Shown: piece by piece, positions 27,758 through 34,473 of the stretch | Numbering within the stretch: position 1 is the first letter of the stretch | Layout: every line of letters begins with the position of its first letter | NCBI RefSeq assembly: GCF_017873815.1 | Contig: NZ_JAGGKQ010000005.1 | Span: 1-64,000 of the forward strand | Reading direction: 5' to 3' | DNA length: 64,000 nucleotides | DNA from: Halorubrum alkaliphilum | Lineage (GTDB): Archaea > Halobacteriota > Halobacteria > Halobacteriales > Haloferacaceae | Notes under the pieces: model-generated | Database searches by the model: none | The model's input: only the letters and a program-made list of their open reading frames with translations | What the model was told of the DNA's origin: nothing | Position numbers and translations under genes: made by a program

Positions 27758-29600
27758 ACTCGTCCGTAAGTGAACGCGTCATCCACTCGCTCGCCTGCGG
27801 CTCGGCCGGATCCGTCATGACCTCGACGAGCGACGGTCCGTCGTGGTCGATCGCGTTCGCGACCGCCTCGCCGACCGCCTCCCGCGTGTCGACGCGCTCC
27901 GCCGCCACGCCCATGCCCTCCGCGATCGCGACGAGGTCCAACCCCGCGCCGTCCCACCCGTACGCGCCGGGCTCGAAGTCGTAGGAGCGTTCGGCCTCCT
28001 CGCTGATGATCGCGTAGTCATCGTTGTTGAGCGCGACGACCGTCACGTCGACTCCCTCGCTCGCCAAGGTGTGAAGCTCGTGGACACACATCATGAGGCC
28101 GCCGTCCCCGGTCAGCGCGACGACCTCGCGCTCGGGGTTCGCGAGCTTCGCGCCAATCGCGGACGGGAGTCCGGTCCCCATGGTCGCCCACGACCCCGGG
28201 TTTACGTACGAGGACGGCCCCAACGCGGGAAACGAGACGAGCGTCCAGAGCCGAAACCCGCCCGCGTCGGCAGTGACGACCGCGTCATCCGGGACGACCT
28301 CGCGGACCTCCCGGAGGACCTCGACTGAGCGGAGCGGATCCTCCGGATCGCGTTCGGCGGCGACCGCTACGAACCGATCCCGGTCCGCCTCGCGCACCGA
28401 TGTGGTCCGTTTCGCGCCCGGCGTCGACGAGGAACCGACACCGGCGGGTTCATCTCCTGCTCCGGTATCCGCCTCGATCCGTTCGGCGAGGGCCGAAAGG
28501 AATCGGTCCGCGTCGGCGATGACGCCCACGTCGGTCTCGTAACCGAACCCGATGTCGTCGACACCGAGCGTGACGTGGACGAGCGTGTCCGGGAGCTCGA
28601 CCGACCATTCCGCCGTCGCGACCGCGTCGAGATCCGAGCCGACGACCAGCCCGGCGTCGGCCCCCGCGAGCAGCTCGCGAAGCTCCGTGCTCGCGCCCCC
28701 GCAAAGCACGCCCGCCGACAGCGGATGCGTCTCCGGGATCGTTCCCTTACCCTTATACGTCGTCACGACCGGCGCGTCCAACAGTTCGGCGACCACGCGG
28801 AGCCCGTCGCTCGCACCGGAGCGTCTAACCCCGCCGCCCGCGAGCAGGACGGGATCCGACGCCTCGCGAAGCAGCGCGACGGCCCGGTCGACCGCGGGGT
28901 CGGACGGCTCCGTCGGGGGTTCCGGATCCCGATCCGGCGGCGTCGCCTGCGGCGTCCGGCTCGCGAGGGCGTCCTTCGGGATCCCGACTCTGACAGGTCC
29001 CTGTGGAGCCTCGCGGGCGACGCGGATCGCGTCGTCGACCGCGGCGACCGCGCCCGCGGGCGACTGTACGAGGACGTTCTCCTTGACGACCGTGTCGTAC
29101 GTCTCCGGCGGCGTCTCGTGGATCCCGTCCCCGCCGCGCACGTCGCGTTCAGTCTCCACGGCGAGGTGGAGCAACGGGACGCAGTCGTTTCTCGCGTTCT
29201 TCAGCCCGTTCATCGCGTTCATGTCACCCGGTCCGGGGACGACCACCGTCGCCGCCATCGTTCCCGGATCGCTCGACTCGGCGTATCCCCACGCCTGATG
29301 CGTCACCGCGGTCTCGTGGCGAGCGACGACGAACCGTGCGTCGCGGTCGGCGAACGCCCGGTTGAGCGGGAGCGTCTGTTTCCCGGGGATCCCGAACGCC
29401 GTGTCGATCCCACAGTCGAGCAAACGGTCCACGACGGCCTCCCCGACCGTCGGGACCGTGGCCCCGTCGTCCGTGTTTCCCTCGTCCGCGACCGCGTCGT
29501 CCGTGTTTCCCTCGTCCGCGACCGCGTCGTCCGTGTTTCCCTCGTCCGCGACCGCGTCGTCCGTGTTTCCCTCGTCCGTGTTCCCGGTATCGGGGTCCAT
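27738..29600 (-). CDS. Thiamine-diphosphate-dependent enzyme (acetolactate synthase-like)
   Basis: The 620-residue protein has the three-domain fold of acetolactate synthase/benzoylformate decarboxylase enzymes. The catalytic glutamate is in VARHETAV, the central FAD/nucleotide-like domain spans about 225-380, and the cofactor motif runs from TGDGGLMM to NNDDYAII (about 505-535). Substrate is unknown; no small regulatory subunit is adjacent. The N-terminus is odd: NTDDAVADEG is repeated three times plus partial units before the enzyme begins near residue 47 (VPTVGEAVVDRLL). The C-terminus ends in an IS-derived hairpin. Confidence 0.9.
   Translation of the reverse strand: MDPDTGNTDEGNTDDAVADEGNTDDAVADEGNTDDAVADEGNTDDGATVPTVGEAVVDRLLDCGIDTAFGIPGKQTLPLNRAFADRDARFVVARHETAVTHQAWGYAESSDPGTMAATVVVPGPGDMNAMNGLKNARNDCVPLLHLAVETERDVRGGDGIHETPPETYDTVVKENVLVQSPAGAVAAVDDAIRVAREAPQGPVRVGIPKDALASRTPQATPPDRDPEPPTEPSDPAVDRAVALLREASDPVLLAGGGVRRSGASDGLRVVAELLDAPVVTTYKGKGTIPETHPLSAGVLCGGASTELRELLAGADAGLVVGSDLDAVATAEWSVELPDTLVHVTLGVDDIGFGYETDVGVIADADRFLSALAERIEADTGAGDEPAGVGSSSTPGAKRTTSVREADRDRFVAVAAERDPEDPLRSVEVLREVREVVPDDAVVTADAGGFRLWTLVSFPALGPSSYVNPGSWATMGTGLPSAIGAKLANPEREVVALTGDGGLMMCVHELHTLASEGVDVTVVALNNDDYAIISEEAERSYDFEPGAYGWDGAGLDLVAIAEGMGVAAERVDTREAVGEAVANAIDHDGPSLVEVMTDPAEPQASEWMTRSLTDESDSSHG
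29466..29579 (+). repeat. 30-bp in-frame tandem repeat in the thiamine enzyme gene
   Basis: The unit GTCGTCCGTGTTTCCCTCGT plus CCGCGACCGC is repeated at 29466, 29496 and 29526, with a partial fourth copy from 29556. Because the period is a multiple of three, copy number changes would alter only the acidic N-terminal tail of the enzyme. Confidence 0.92.
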
Positions 29601-30687: not shown

Positions 30688-32652
30688 TCACTCCGCGACG
30701 TTGGTCTCCCTGACCCTGACTCCCTTGCGCGCGAGATGTCGCATCTGCCGTTGAGCGAACTCCTCCTCGCTCGATCCGCGGGTTGCGAGCACGTACACGA
30801 GCGCGGACCCCTCGGGACGCATGGTTCGACCCGCGCGCTGGGAGCCCTGTCGTCGACTGCCGCCGAGCCCGCTCGCAACGATCGCGAGTTCGGCGTTCGG
30901 GAGGTCGATCCCCTCGTCGCCGACCCGAGAGACGACGAGCGTGTCGAGGTCGCCGTCCTCCCCCCGGAACTGTCGGAACAGCTCCGTTCGGTCGCGGTGT
31001 GGCGTCTCGCCGCTGATGAAGGGGACGCCGAGCGCGTCGGCGATGGCATCGCCGTGATCGAGGTACTCGATGAAGACGAGCGCCTTCTGCTCGCGATGGG
31101 CGGCGAGTAGATAGCGGATCTCCTCGATCTTCGCGGGGTTCTCGGCCGCCACCCGCCGTCGCTCCCGGCCGTCCGCGCTGGCGTACTCGTTGCGTGCCAA
31201 CTCGTCGCGCCACGGGACGTATCGGATCTCGACTTCGGGCTCCTGAACGAACCCGGCCTCGAACAGCGCGTCCCAGTCCGCGCCGATCGGCCCCCCGATC
31301 AGGGTGTATATCTCCTCCTCGCTTCCCGTCTCGCGGACCGGCGTCGCGGAGAGGCCGAGCCGGTGTTTGCTCTGGAGCTCCGCCGTTCTGGAGTACACCG
31401 GGGCCGTGACGTGGTGGCACTCGTCGAAACAGATCAACCCCCACTTCCGCGAGTCGAACAGAGAGCGGTGGCGGTCCATCCCGGCGATCTGGTAGGTGGC
31501 GATCGTTACCGGCCGGATCTCCTTGGCACCGCCGTGATACAGGCCGATATCCGCGGGGTCGACCGTGGTGTGGTCGAGCAGCTCCTCGCGCCACTGCCCA
31601 GCCAATTCGCGGGAGGGAACCAAGATCAGCGTCTCTCCGCCGACGGCAGCCATCGTCGCGATGGCGGCGACCGTCTTTCCCGACCCGGGTGGACCGACGT
31701 ACACGCCCGAACGTGATTCGAGGAACGTCTCGACCCACGTCTCCTGATACGGTCGGAGATCAGTCGTGAGATCGATGTCCACCGGGTCGCCCGTGTCGAG
31801 GTCGCGGTCGTCCTCGACGGGATAGCCGGCGTCGTACAGCGCGCGCTTGACCGCTGCAACCTCCGTCTCGTTCACCCATGCCTCCGTCTCGGAGATGGGC
31901 GCGCGGACGTGTTCGTCCGCCAGATGTTGGTCCGCCACGTTTCCCATGAGGCTCTCGGAGGCCGCCTCCAACACGACGTAGTCGTCCTCGTGGGTGTACA
32001 GCCGGAACCGGTGTGCGCGCCGCCACTGGTCCCGGATCCACTCCTCCAAGTGCTCGAACCGACGAGGAAGCACCGACCGGAGGCTGGCGATCAACGCGTC
32101 CGCGTCCTCGAACGGCGCGGCCCAGACGTCCTCCTGGCGGATCCGGTAAAGATATCCGCGCGTTCCGGGATCGGTCCCGGTCGTGTCGACGAGGTTCGCG
32201 AACTGCGAGAGTCGCGCCCGCGTGAACTGTGTCGGTCGGTCGACGACGATCTCCCGGCGTTTCGGGAAGGTTACGACCCGCTCGCGGCTCGCCAGCCGAC
32301 CCCACTCGGTCGGGTAGAAGACGACGGGGTCGCTCTCGACGTCGAGCCGATCCACGTCCCCGCGGTCGACGAGCGTGGCGAGCGCGTCGCGGGCGGCCGC
32401 CTGCGTCGTCCCCAGCCGCCTCGCAACCTCGCTGGCGGTCGCGACGGGTCGTTCCTCGGCTTCGAGCGCGTCGTGAAACCGGTCGAGCGAGAGGGAGTCG
32501 TCGACATCGATCTCCTCGCCGTCGTCATCGGCGTCAATGCCGCCGTCATCGGCGTCAATGCCGCCGTCATCGGTATCGACGTCGCTCGCCGTAGCCTCCG
32601 TGTCGGGATCGGACGCGTCGCCGGCTTCCGGGCCGCCGGGGTCGTCGGTCAT
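30688..32652 (-). CDS. XPB/Rad25-like superfamily 2 DNA helicase
   Basis: The 654-residue protein combines a winged-helix-like N-terminal region (about 50-100), a damage-recognition-like middle segment and the helicase core from about residue 300. Core motifs are Walker A GPPGSGKT, the DExx box FDECHH, motif III LSATPVR and motif VI QRAGRTMRP. Archaeal XPB-like helicases unwind damaged DNA with a nuclease partner; none is adjacent. The ATG at 32652 gives an acidic N-terminus with repeated GGIDADD. A longer GTG start at 32763 exists but adds a tail unlike the family. Confidence 0.88.
   Translation of the reverse strand: MTDDPGGPEAGDASDPDTEATASDVDTDDGGIDADDGGIDADDDGEEIDVDDSLSLDRFHDALEAEERPVATASEVARRLGTTQAAARDALATLVDRGDVDRLDVESDPVVFYPTEWGRLASRERVVTFPKRREIVVDRPTQFTRARLSQFANLVDTTGTDPGTRGYLYRIRQEDVWAAPFEDADALIASLRSVLPRRFEHLEEWIRDQWRRAHRFRLYTHEDDYVVLEAASESLMGNVADQHLADEHVRAPISETEAWVNETEVAAVKRALYDAGYPVEDDRDLDTGDPVDIDLTTDLRPYQETWVETFLESRSGVYVGPPGSGKTVAAIATMAAVGGETLILVPSRELAGQWREELLDHTTVDPADIGLYHGGAKEIRPVTIATYQIAGMDRHRSLFDSRKWGLICFDECHHVTAPVYSRTAELQSKHRLGLSATPVRETGSEEEIYTLIGGPIGADWDALFEAGFVQEPEVEIRYVPWRDELARNEYASADGRERRRVAAENPAKIEEIRYLLAAHREQKALVFIEYLDHGDAIADALGVPFISGETPHRDRTELFRQFRGEDGDLDTLVVSRVGDEGIDLPNAELAIVASGLGGSRRQGSQRAGRTMRPEGSALVYVLATRGSSEEEFAQRQMRHLARKGVRVRETNVAE
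32521..32572 (+). repeat. 21-bp in-frame tandem repeat in the helicase gene
   Basis: GCCGTCATCGGCGTCAATGC plus C recurs with a 21-bp period about 2.5 times and encodes the acidic GGIDADD repeats at the helicase N-terminus. The period is a multiple of three, so length changes stay in frame. Confidence 0.85.
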
Positions 32653-33061
32653 TGGCTCGGCTTCGGTCGGGAGGCGGAAATGAGTAGCGTCCCCGACCGA
32701 CGTGGAGATAGGGAGATCCACGTACTCACTTATATACAGATACTGACGACGATGGTCGACCACTTATAAACAGCCACCTCTGAAAACGCTCGACTGATCT
32801 CAAATTCTCAGTGGTTGATACGGACGTCGTGGTGACTATGGCGCGCAGATACACTGCCGATTGCTTCCCGACTCACGTCAGTGACCGATGTCGGGAGTGG
32901 GTCTCGCAATACGGTGGAGTAGTTGTTTATAAGTGAGATAGTGGTGTTGCTGGCGGCTGGTTATAACTAGATGGTGCTGTGGTGAGCGGCTCTACTTCTC
33001 CAGCTGTTCGTTTATAAGTGGTTGCTGGCGGATCGGCGGTGAACACCTCCAAACCTCCAGT

Positions 33062-33506
33062 CGCGAGGACTCGCGCGCTTTGCTGCGCTCCTCGTCACTC
33101 GCGTTGTCGCCGGCGGCTCTGCCGCCGGCTGCCAGAGGGACCTTCGGTCCCTCACTGCTCGTTCCTGCGGTGCTTGCTACAGCGTGTGAGCCCTCGTGGC
33201 TCACGGGCCTCCGGCCCGTTCGCTGTCGGGGCCTCCCTCCGGTCGGCCCCGCTCCCTGCCTCTTTGAGTCCCGCCCCGCAACCGCCCCGCACCTCACGCC
33301 TCCCCAGCCTCGTCAGGGACGGTCGCCGGAACCGCTCGGCGACCGTCCCTGACTCAGCGAGAATCGGAGATTCTCTGGCAGGCGGCGGAGCCGCCGGCTG
33401 CCAGAGGGACCTTCGGTCCCTCGCGGTTCGCGGCTCTCCGAGCCGCTCACCGGGGCGCGGGGCGAGAGCGGAGCTCTCGCTAGCAACCGGCGGCAAAGCC
33501 GCCGGT
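33062..33506. repeat. Array of perfect short hairpins
   Basis: At least twelve inverted repeats lie head to tail in 445 bp, most with perfect 6-9-bp stems and 3-nt loops: 33062-33075, 33109-33129 (9 bp, TCT), 33135-33153 (8 bp, TTC), 33186-33204, 33203-33219 (7 bp, TCC), 33228-33250, 33312-33353 (16 bp perfect, 10-nt loop), 33359-33375 (7 bp, GGA), 33375-33404 (nested), 33404-33422 (8 bp, TTC), 33430-33446 (7 bp, TCC), 33462-33480 (8 bp, GGA) and 33486-33506 (9 bp, AAA). There is no protein-like codon pattern. This is not a CRISPR array, since arms differ between units and no spacer of constant length exists. Confidence 0.9.
33121..33422 (+). repeat. 33-bp direct repeat within the hairpin array
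   Basis: Positions 33121-33153 and 33390-33422 are identical over 33 bp, starting GCCGCCGGCTGCCAGAGGGA and ending CGGTCCCTC. Each copy holds half of one GC-rich hairpin and a complete second hairpin, so the array seems built from reused modules. Confidence 0.9.
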
Positions 33507-33741
33507 GACGCCACCGCATCGTTCATTTATAAAGGGTCGTCGCTGCCGCTCAAATACCTTTTATATACGATCTCGTTGCTATCGATCTGAGCGATCTACT
33601 CCCCGTATGATCGATGAGAACGTCTCATACTACGGACGTTTCCGTGAGTCCTCTAACCGATGGTTCCGCCGGGGACTCGACCGCTTATATACTGCTACCG
33701 GAAACGACGATCGTGGTTTAAATGACCCCTCGATAGCGACG

Positions 33742-34473
33742 CTACCGCCCGGACGGGCCGTGACAGCCGCGGCCGGTGATCGCGTCTTTCGACCGGAACC
33801 GGCAGCCGCAGTCGGCACAGCAAACGTAGGGCTGACCGGGCTCGGTTTCGAGGCGGTGCTCGCCCACAACGAAGGGGCGGGTGATCGCCCGCGGGCGGAT
33901 CCGGTCCGGGATCGGCTCGGCGGACGCCTCGCTTAGTCCGGTTCGCACGTCGATGGTGTCGATGTCGACGGGGTCAAACCGGCCTGCTTCGAGCGCGCGG
34001 TCGCGGTCCGCGATCTCCGTCCAGCCGGTGACGACCACGGGGGAGTTCGTCTCGGTGTCGCCCACGACGACGACGAACCGGATCCCGTCCTCGACGAGTG
34101 CGAACCGCCAGCCGTCGGTACGGTTCCAGCGGAGCTGTCCGCGTCGGATGGCGTCGCTCACGGCCCGTGTCGAGACGTATCTACCGGGCTGTTCGAGGCG
34201 TTCGCGGAAGTGGTCGGTGAGCGCGTACAGGCTCGGGTCGCGGACCGGCGGGTCCTCCGGGGTCCGTCGTCTCGCGGTCGGCTCGGAACCGCCGGCATCG
34301 GGGCGATGGGCTGACCGTGCTCTGGAGTCGTCCGGTCCGAACCGGCTCGGCGGCGTGGTCGGCTCGCGACGGGACCCGGCGTCGGGTGTCGCCGCGTGCG
34401 GTGCGGTCCGGCGCTCCGTCGATCCGGTACCGGACCCCTCGTCGGGTCCCGGTCCGCCCTGTCGGGATGCCAC
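33742..34473 (-). CDS. Hypothetical protein with C-terminal zinc-binding-like motif
   Basis: The 243-residue protein has a disordered Arg/Pro/Ser-rich N-terminus (1-75), a compact middle domain (about 80-155; DHFRERLEQPGRYVS, then WRFALVEDGIRFVVVVGD and VVVTGWTEI) and a C-terminal cysteine cluster (VCCADCGCRF...GRGC). The middle resembles DUF4258-type small domains related to RelE-like folds, but this is a weak similarity by eye. The cysteines suggest a zinc ribbon. No function is assigned. It faces the hairpin region with its 3' end. Confidence 0.65.
   Translation of the reverse strand: MASRQGGPGPDEGSGTGSTERRTAPHAATPDAGSRREPTTPPSRFGPDDSRARSAHRPDAGGSEPTARRRTPEDPPVRDPSLYALTDHFRERLEQPGRYVSTRAVSDAIRRGQLRWNRTDGWRFALVEDGIRFVVVVGDTETNSPVVVTGWTEIADRDRALEAGRFDPVDIDTIDVRTGLSEASAEPIPDRIRPRAITRPFVVGEHRLETEPGQPYVCCADCGCRFRSKDAITGRGCHGPSGR

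Follow-up and report, generated by a model that had tools for sequence, protein, structure and literature searches.

A dispersed intergenic element of haloarchaea with a conserved fold and apparently inserted two-hairpin units

The hairpin cluster at positions 33,062-33,506 of the window (the whole 64,000-nucleotide stretch analysed, from Halorubrum alkaliphilum) lies within a non-coding element of ~0.73 kb that is missing from orthologous intergenic regions. It is best explained as one copy of a two-tier dispersed repeat, a structured intergenic element into which two-hairpin units have been inserted, and we put the probability of this reading at about two in three. Copies are dispersed, differ in occupancy at orthologous loci, conserve their structure, include exact empty sites, carry inverted loops and are mosaic. 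In the first tier, conserved linkers (GGGACTSAAAGGGGC ... GTAAGCACCG ... GAGGAGCGCAGCGAG ... GGGGCTTTS on the minus strand of the window) would hold stems whose sequence is highly variable and whose pairing is conserved. The second tier would consist of 45-60-bp units, each of two triloop hairpins with GTC at one foot, that behave like CGTC-tagged REPs and insert into the first tier with little or no target duplication. Copies would be shuffled by recombination via the conserved linkers, stems being exchanged as cassettes, and the folded strand may work at transcript ends, whichever way these run, to insulate adjacent genes or to terminate transcription between them. The broadest form of the claim, a haloarchaea-wide structured RNA or single-stranded DNA element with hypervariable stem cassettes on conserved linkers, colonised by ~50-bp two-hairpin movers for which no transposase is known, is offered tentatively, at somewhat less than even odds.

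The cluster contains ten perfect, non-overlapping hairpins with stems of at least 6 bp; nine have 3-nt loops (TCT, TTC, TCC, GGA, GGA, TTC, TCC, GGA, AAA), and the tenth, at 33,312-33,353, has a 17-bp stem and an 8-nt loop. The initial annotation had counted thirteen inverted repeats, of which the ones beyond these ten are imperfect; its description of densely packed perfect hairpins, with loops nearly all of three bases, is confirmed by counts against dinucleotide shuffles. With stems of at least 7 bp, nine hairpins are present against a mean of 0.37 and a maximum of 3 in 200 shuffles, and eight have a 3-nt loop against 0.065 in shuffles; any other 445-bp stretch of the window holds at most three such hairpins. 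Each strand folds about ten standard deviations better than shuffled sequence (z = -10.1 for the RNA fold, z = -10.4 for the other strand folded as DNA). The module said to occur twice is borne out as a 53-bp direct repeat (87% identity, at 33,109 and 33,378), and TATA-like TTTATAA boxes do flank the segment on either side. The cluster as first delimited is real but takes in just the central part of a larger element, whose parts are as follows.

32887-33613, no strand assigned: whole non-coding element, bounded by the left terminal motif and, at its degenerate right end, by the inverted right terminal motif
32887-32902, plus strand: left terminal motif GATGTCGGGAGTGGGT, from a search with the pattern GAYNNCGGGAGTRGRT
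32926-32932, plus strand: TATA-like TTTATAA; boxes with similar spacing occur in other copies
33011-33017, plus strand: TATA-like TTTATAA
33047-33077, plus strand: left arm of the long P1 stem, together with a degenerate CTCCAAAGCCCC box
33060-33200, minus strand: structured P1 domain (covariance model R1, cmsearch), broken by a 53-nt insertion
33107-33157, plus strand: inserted hairpin doublet 1; another copy (row L159+4102) holds its exact empty site
33186-33219, plus strand: two more hairpins, loops CTCGT and TCC; the window copy leaves its L004-like left half here
33262-33279, plus strand: conserved linker CTTTGAGTCCCGCCCCGC (C2)
33292-33312, plus strand: core, the highly conserved linker CCTCACGCCTCCCCAGCCTCG; G-rich on the reverse strand
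33312-33353, plus strand: post-core stem P4, perfect over 17 bp, loop GAACCGCT
33355-33395, minus strand: inserted hairpin doublet 2, in reverse orientation, fused at one hairpin with doublet 3
33381-33423, plus strand: hairpin doublet 3, with one hairpin common to doublet 2
33424-33452, minus strand: native P5/P6 hairpin, which carries tandem G.A mismatches on this strand
33457-33507, minus strand: inserted hairpin doublet 4; 11 other copies hold its exact empty site
33508-33517, plus strand: conserved end ACGCCACCGC
33526-33532, no strand assigned: TATA-like TTTATAA, usually 8 nt past the conserved end
33594-33613, minus strand: degenerate inverted right terminal motif

Against R1, a covariance model of the P1 domain trained on copies from the own genus and from named exact-core contigs (nearly all Halorubrum), the P1 domain of the window copy scores 27.8 bits (E 9.7e-6); it is missed by cmsearch with default filters and found only with filters off, and the match needs a 53-nt insertion exactly where doublet 1 sits. 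Doublet 1 is made up as TC-[9-bp stem, TCT]-TGCCA-[8-bp stem, TTC]-ACTG, its GTC tag borrowing the final base of the flank, and the uninterrupted counterpart of its site is GCGTTGCTCGTTCC in L171. Units of the doublet 2 type are inserted in many copies at CTC^CCTCGC. Doublet 4 reads [ACCGGCGGC..]-TGCTA-[GCGAGAGC..] on the minus strand; other copies carry a P4-type stem with the inverted loop AGCGGTTC. The window copy is mosaic and contains three or four two-hairpin units. In a search of the own genome, segment positions 1-125 match one copy at 99% identity, and other parts match other copies. Beyond the element, further TATA-like boxes and inverted repeats occur at 32,700-32,880 and 33,620-33,742 (for example 32,759-32,771 versus 33,010-33,022), which are perhaps remnants of further copies.

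The segment is gene-free, as first described: the neighbouring genes lie ~1,089 bp apart, versus ~19-133 bp at element-free orthologous loci. This gap, upstream of a helicase gene, is empty in about half of the Halorubrum species listed and holds an element, in either orientation, in other species of the genus. Chance ORFs overlap the region, as they might in a decayed GC-rich gene, the finding that the initial annotation held would undo its view of an array; with element-free gaps this short, and relatives that align by structure rather than by reading frame, such an origin is refuted and retains next to no probability.

Searched at the nucleotide level, the own genome gives 70 matches to pieces of the segment, and the terminal motif pattern has 99 sites there versus 5 for the reversed control, both counts coming from searches. 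From left to right, the element comprises the terminal motif GATNNCGGGAGTGGGT, TATA-like boxes, the CCAAAGCCCC box, hairpins, the linkers CTTTGAGTCCCACCCCG and CTCACGCCTCCCCAGCCTCG, further hairpins, GCGCCACCGC, a TATA-like box and finally the terminal motif in inverted orientation. A match is present in each of the 52 Halorubrum genomes searched, and the exact 19-base core is found too in Haloparvum, Halorussus and Halobellus. R1 matches 207 of 293 genomes and 68 of the 87 genera of the order; a deeper search of 16 genomes gives the highest count in G075, with at least 87 copies, per-genome counts being lower bounds. Elsewhere in the phylum, ~164 genomes gave zero R1 matches, and the 25 positive genomes of a phylum-wide sample are all members of the order. 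In genera other than Halorubrum, elements usually take the form of a lone P1 domain or of an inverted pair, arranged as GGGTGGGACTGAAAGGGGC, stem, GACGTAAGCACCGCAG, short pairs with G.A mismatches, GAGGAGCGCAGCGAG, stem and GGGGCTTTC. The early suggestion of a module spread through haloarchaea as an intergenic element draws support from dispersal across genomes, related modules being found in most genera of the order. Few copies are on plasmids and none in phage records, a distribution atypical of an aggressive transposon, and a viral or plasmid origin has little support.

The region is repeated, structured and partly palindromic, so a missed CRISPR-like, tRNA-like or otherwise known structured RNA was considered. 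In Rfam 15 no family comes near its gathering score (only far-below-threshold matches, of miRNA type and the like, are returned), neither tRNA nor tmRNA occurs in the 64-kb window, and no recurrent neighbouring gene accompanies the elements; this explanation is largely refuted and very improbable. The base element resembles Rfam 15 structured RNA families in its conserved linkers, covarying stems and preferred strand, and differs in matching no family and in having tens of intergenic copies per genome. Searches of the openly licensed literature for the conserved sequences, and for REPs or structured repeats of haloarchaea, gave no published description of the element. If the reading is right, most haloarchaeal genera carry an undescribed element outside RNA family libraries, in copy numbers that reach the tens, and R1 makes it searchable.

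Turnover is seen at orthologous loci. At the topA-endA locus (gene names here, as for the helicase, are a reading of translated flanks), an element of another family is present in most of the best 30 matching species and absent in others. At three of these loci (L267, L268 and L269) it is reduced to the scar GGGACTGAAAGGGGCTTTC or a one-base variant, both flanks being joined at a short direct repeat. The scar sequence occurs at 35 sites in 125 genomes (control 0); being rare, it is read as a footprint of loss, and the idea of a dispersed pre-existing target of the base element is rejected. Such precise scars could be useful to date loss events. No target duplication was recognised by eye at the ends of base elements. 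Orthologous elements can have entirely different stems while their linkers stay the same; L021 and L028 are near-identical over long stretches, with unrelated flanks and one hairpin cassette swapped, and between L026 and L027 a loop is inverted between its arms. The helicase itself (30,688-32,652) has orthologues in G013, G027, G037, G039 and G047 whose match is split near residue 413 in an ORF of ~1,150 aa, the pattern expected for an intein; the window copy has no such interruption.

Conservation of the fold is apparent in two alignments. For 45 compact copies (set A1, structure by RNAalifold on the minus strand), 55 pairs are predicted, 30 of which show a double compensatory change, and 96.1% of cells are paired versus 84.8% after shuffling and 28-43% with partners slid; related copies are not independent, so the shuffle figures, here and for the second set, are not probabilities. 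For 57 elements from genera other than Halorubrum (A3), 97.6% of cells are paired versus 73.2% shuffled, 28 of 33 pairs show compensatory change and the covariation score is 0.627 versus 0.185 shuffled, results that lean towards the model, strand comparison included, because the alignment was fitted to it. Covariation above chance over copies, as looked for in a structured RNA, is thus found against shuffled and slid controls; the arms do covary, whereas homologues without covarying arms, together with the lack of a transcript, had been named as counting against the RNA reading. Stems differ from copy to copy yet remain paired, and since whole stems are replaced at orthologous loci, some of the covariation is due to swapped cassettes rather than stepwise compensatory mutation. 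If the reading is right, the element is a natural system for asking how a fold is retained despite whole-stem swaps.

One strand is preferred. RNAalifold gives -68.7 kcal/mol for the minus strand versus -46.1 for the plus strand; among pairs predicted on both strands, G.U versus A.C stands at 39:16 in favour of the minus strand, and for pairs varying between C-G and U-A the intermediates stand at 54:12 and 48:5. G.U intermediates that favour one strand indicate a single strand folding on its own, as RNA or as single-stranded DNA. In the alignments, unpaired 2x2 stretches are mostly GA/GA on the minus strand, that is, tandem G.A mismatches between 2-bp stacks. Such regularities bear on a neutral explanation, in which palindromic junk is kept perfect by template switching (quasipalindrome correction) and gene conversion and the fold is unselected. 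Loop inversions, cassette swaps, the wholesale replacement of stems at orthologous loci and precise loss between short direct repeats would all suit it; within-molecule correction leaves the one-strand excess of G.U over A.C unexplained, however, and the tandem G.A pattern, linkers conserved across families and presence in so many genera also make it quite unlikely. The suggestion of a structured RNA is supported when taken to mean a conserved single-strand fold with compensatory changes. That strand probably folds as RNA; folding as single-stranded DNA is unlikely though far from negligible, and a double-stranded cruciform is improbable.

Many of the triloop hairpins belong to the second tier, being often paired as doublets (defined here by 3-nt loops) with 4-6-nt spacers. 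An exact empty site in another copy, meaning a junction without the doublet and with 8+8 identical bases, is found for 59 of 95 doublets; random segments drawn from these elements give 12.6. The inserts are 45-64 bp long, mostly 47-51, with junction repeats mostly of 0-2 bp. One unit type occupies several different sites in both orientations, for which homologous exchange alone is insufficient. Doublets more than 700 bp from a core number only six in ~800 kb, four of them at loci whose elements have no recognisable core, and the topA-endA element is likewise interrupted by doublets (L250, L253, L255, L256). Of 73 distinct doublets, 57 have GTC beside a stem on one side only and none has it on both sides (background 2.4%); the GTC is preceded by C in 24, T in 14, G in 13 and A in 6, the fourth base often being part of the target, so that the trinucleotide is clear and the full tag only partial. 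TGCCA follows the tagged hairpin as spacer in 21 of the 57 oriented doublets, with variants otherwise. Most triloop hairpins thus appear to be 45-60-bp two-hairpin units inserted into the base element; the proposal of selection on folding or a hairpin-making mechanism was right in spirit, but most of these hairpins would have arrived as units rather than been made in place.

Loop composition adds to the question of which molecule folds. Of 430 perfect hairpins inside elements, 271 have 3-nt loops, 61 have 4 nt and 29 have 5 nt; read on the purine strand, the triloops are GNA in 169 of 271 and closed by C-G in 254 of 271, while GNA accounts for only 38 of 309 triloops outside elements. GNA triloops closed by C-G, d(C-GNA-G), are classic stable DNA minihairpins, whereas in RNA tetraloops dominate and C-G-closed GNA triloops are unusual. 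RNA and DNA nearest-neighbour parameter sets assign the same energy to every triloop. The triloop bias suits DNA hairpins at least equally well, leaving single-stranded DNA as the main rival.

Gene context was read with a home-made gene caller. Of 116 elements placed, 47 lie in convergent and 20 in divergent gaps, convergent gaps being mildly enriched. Between tandem genes orientation is unbiased (25 vs 24), which counts against a simple mRNA-borne regulator. The right-end TATA box lies too near the first helix to start a transcript spanning the whole helix. For a replication barrier or a condensing site, both proposed at first, nothing was found in specific support. In most Halorubrum copies (L022, L026 and L027 among them) TTTATAA boxes are spaced regularly, by 34, 51 and 57 bp; these could bind TBP, and tens of elements would amount to many such sites per genome.

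The unbiased orientation would also be expected of a DNA-level mobile element without RNA function, whose purine-rich strand folds as single-stranded DNA (on the lagging strand or in an HUH-type intermediate) into hairpins recognised by a nuclease or transposase. The C(GNA)G triloops, loop inversions, doublets without target duplication and exact excision-like scars speak for it as well. Against it, G075, whose count covers base elements alone, has no PF01797 Y1 match, archaeal Y1 proteins are reported as IS200 type only, those of RAYT type not being reported in archaea (PMC6006769), the doublet targets have no fixed tetranucleotide in common, and elements are scarce on plasmids and absent from phage records; taken as a whole we hold it to be rather unlikely. 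The own genome has two Y1 matches, one free of internal stops; a Y1 transposase as mover of the base element is not supported, given its absence from G075. MITEs have terminal inverted repeats related to a transposon, usually with target duplication; for the base element, the terminal motif has 99 sites in the own genome, and no autonomous partner was found.

For the doublets of the two-tier repeat, the closest likeness is to the CGTC-tagged REPs of bacteria, which have CGTC, TGTC or CCTC at one end, a stem of 8-9 bp, a loop of 4-5 nt and a short unpaired tail of consensus CCA (Di Nocera et al. 2013, PMC3733652). Stem length is similar, GTC stands at one foot, in part of the units as (C/T)GTC, doublets are frequent and the TGCCA spacer may correspond to the CCA tail; in both, no dedicated transposase is known. 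The doublets differ in lacking, for the most part, the AT stem start and in living almost only within another structured repeat; with this habitat and their 3-nt rather than 4-5-nt loops, they are not classed as CGTC-tagged REPs. No mention of haloarchaea was found among the published families (PMC3733652). If the proposal is true, doublets would rank with the smallest known mobile units and might be a first archaeal relative of CGTC REPs, and the exact empty sites in many copies would offer a natural system for studying the movement of CGTC-type REPs, for which no transposase is known. With GTAG REPs, REPINs and BIMEs the doublets share high-copy intergenic palindromes, the doublet form and mosaic arrays, and by analogy the two may work alike. 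Classification as GTAG REPINs is rejected, since G075 has no Y1 transposase and GTAG is not seen at the feet of doublet hairpins, where the trinucleotides are GTC, AGC, CTC, AGG and others, with TAG just twice. SMR-A of Haloquadratum (~110 bp, with terminal inverted repeats, targeting IS605-type ends or PATE palindromes) is likewise a short haloarchaeal repeat nested in the palindromes of other repeats without target duplication (PMC3119063); the doublets, at 45-60 bp and within a structured element, are set apart from SMR-A by its description (PMC3119063).

Several other repeats were observed. In the own genome, seven adjacent 16-bp terminal-motif-like sites (GATGGCGGGAGTGGCT) lie in tandem at G000:C13:47,716-47,827. 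Within the window, a 17-bp tandem repeat, GAGGGATGAGTAGGTGA, runs for 5.8 copies with 98% matches at 2,693-2,791, and a perfect 30-bp tandem repeat at 29,465-29,578 (3.8 copies) encodes DEGNTDDAVA repeats near the N terminus of a thiamine-diphosphate-enzyme-like ORF.
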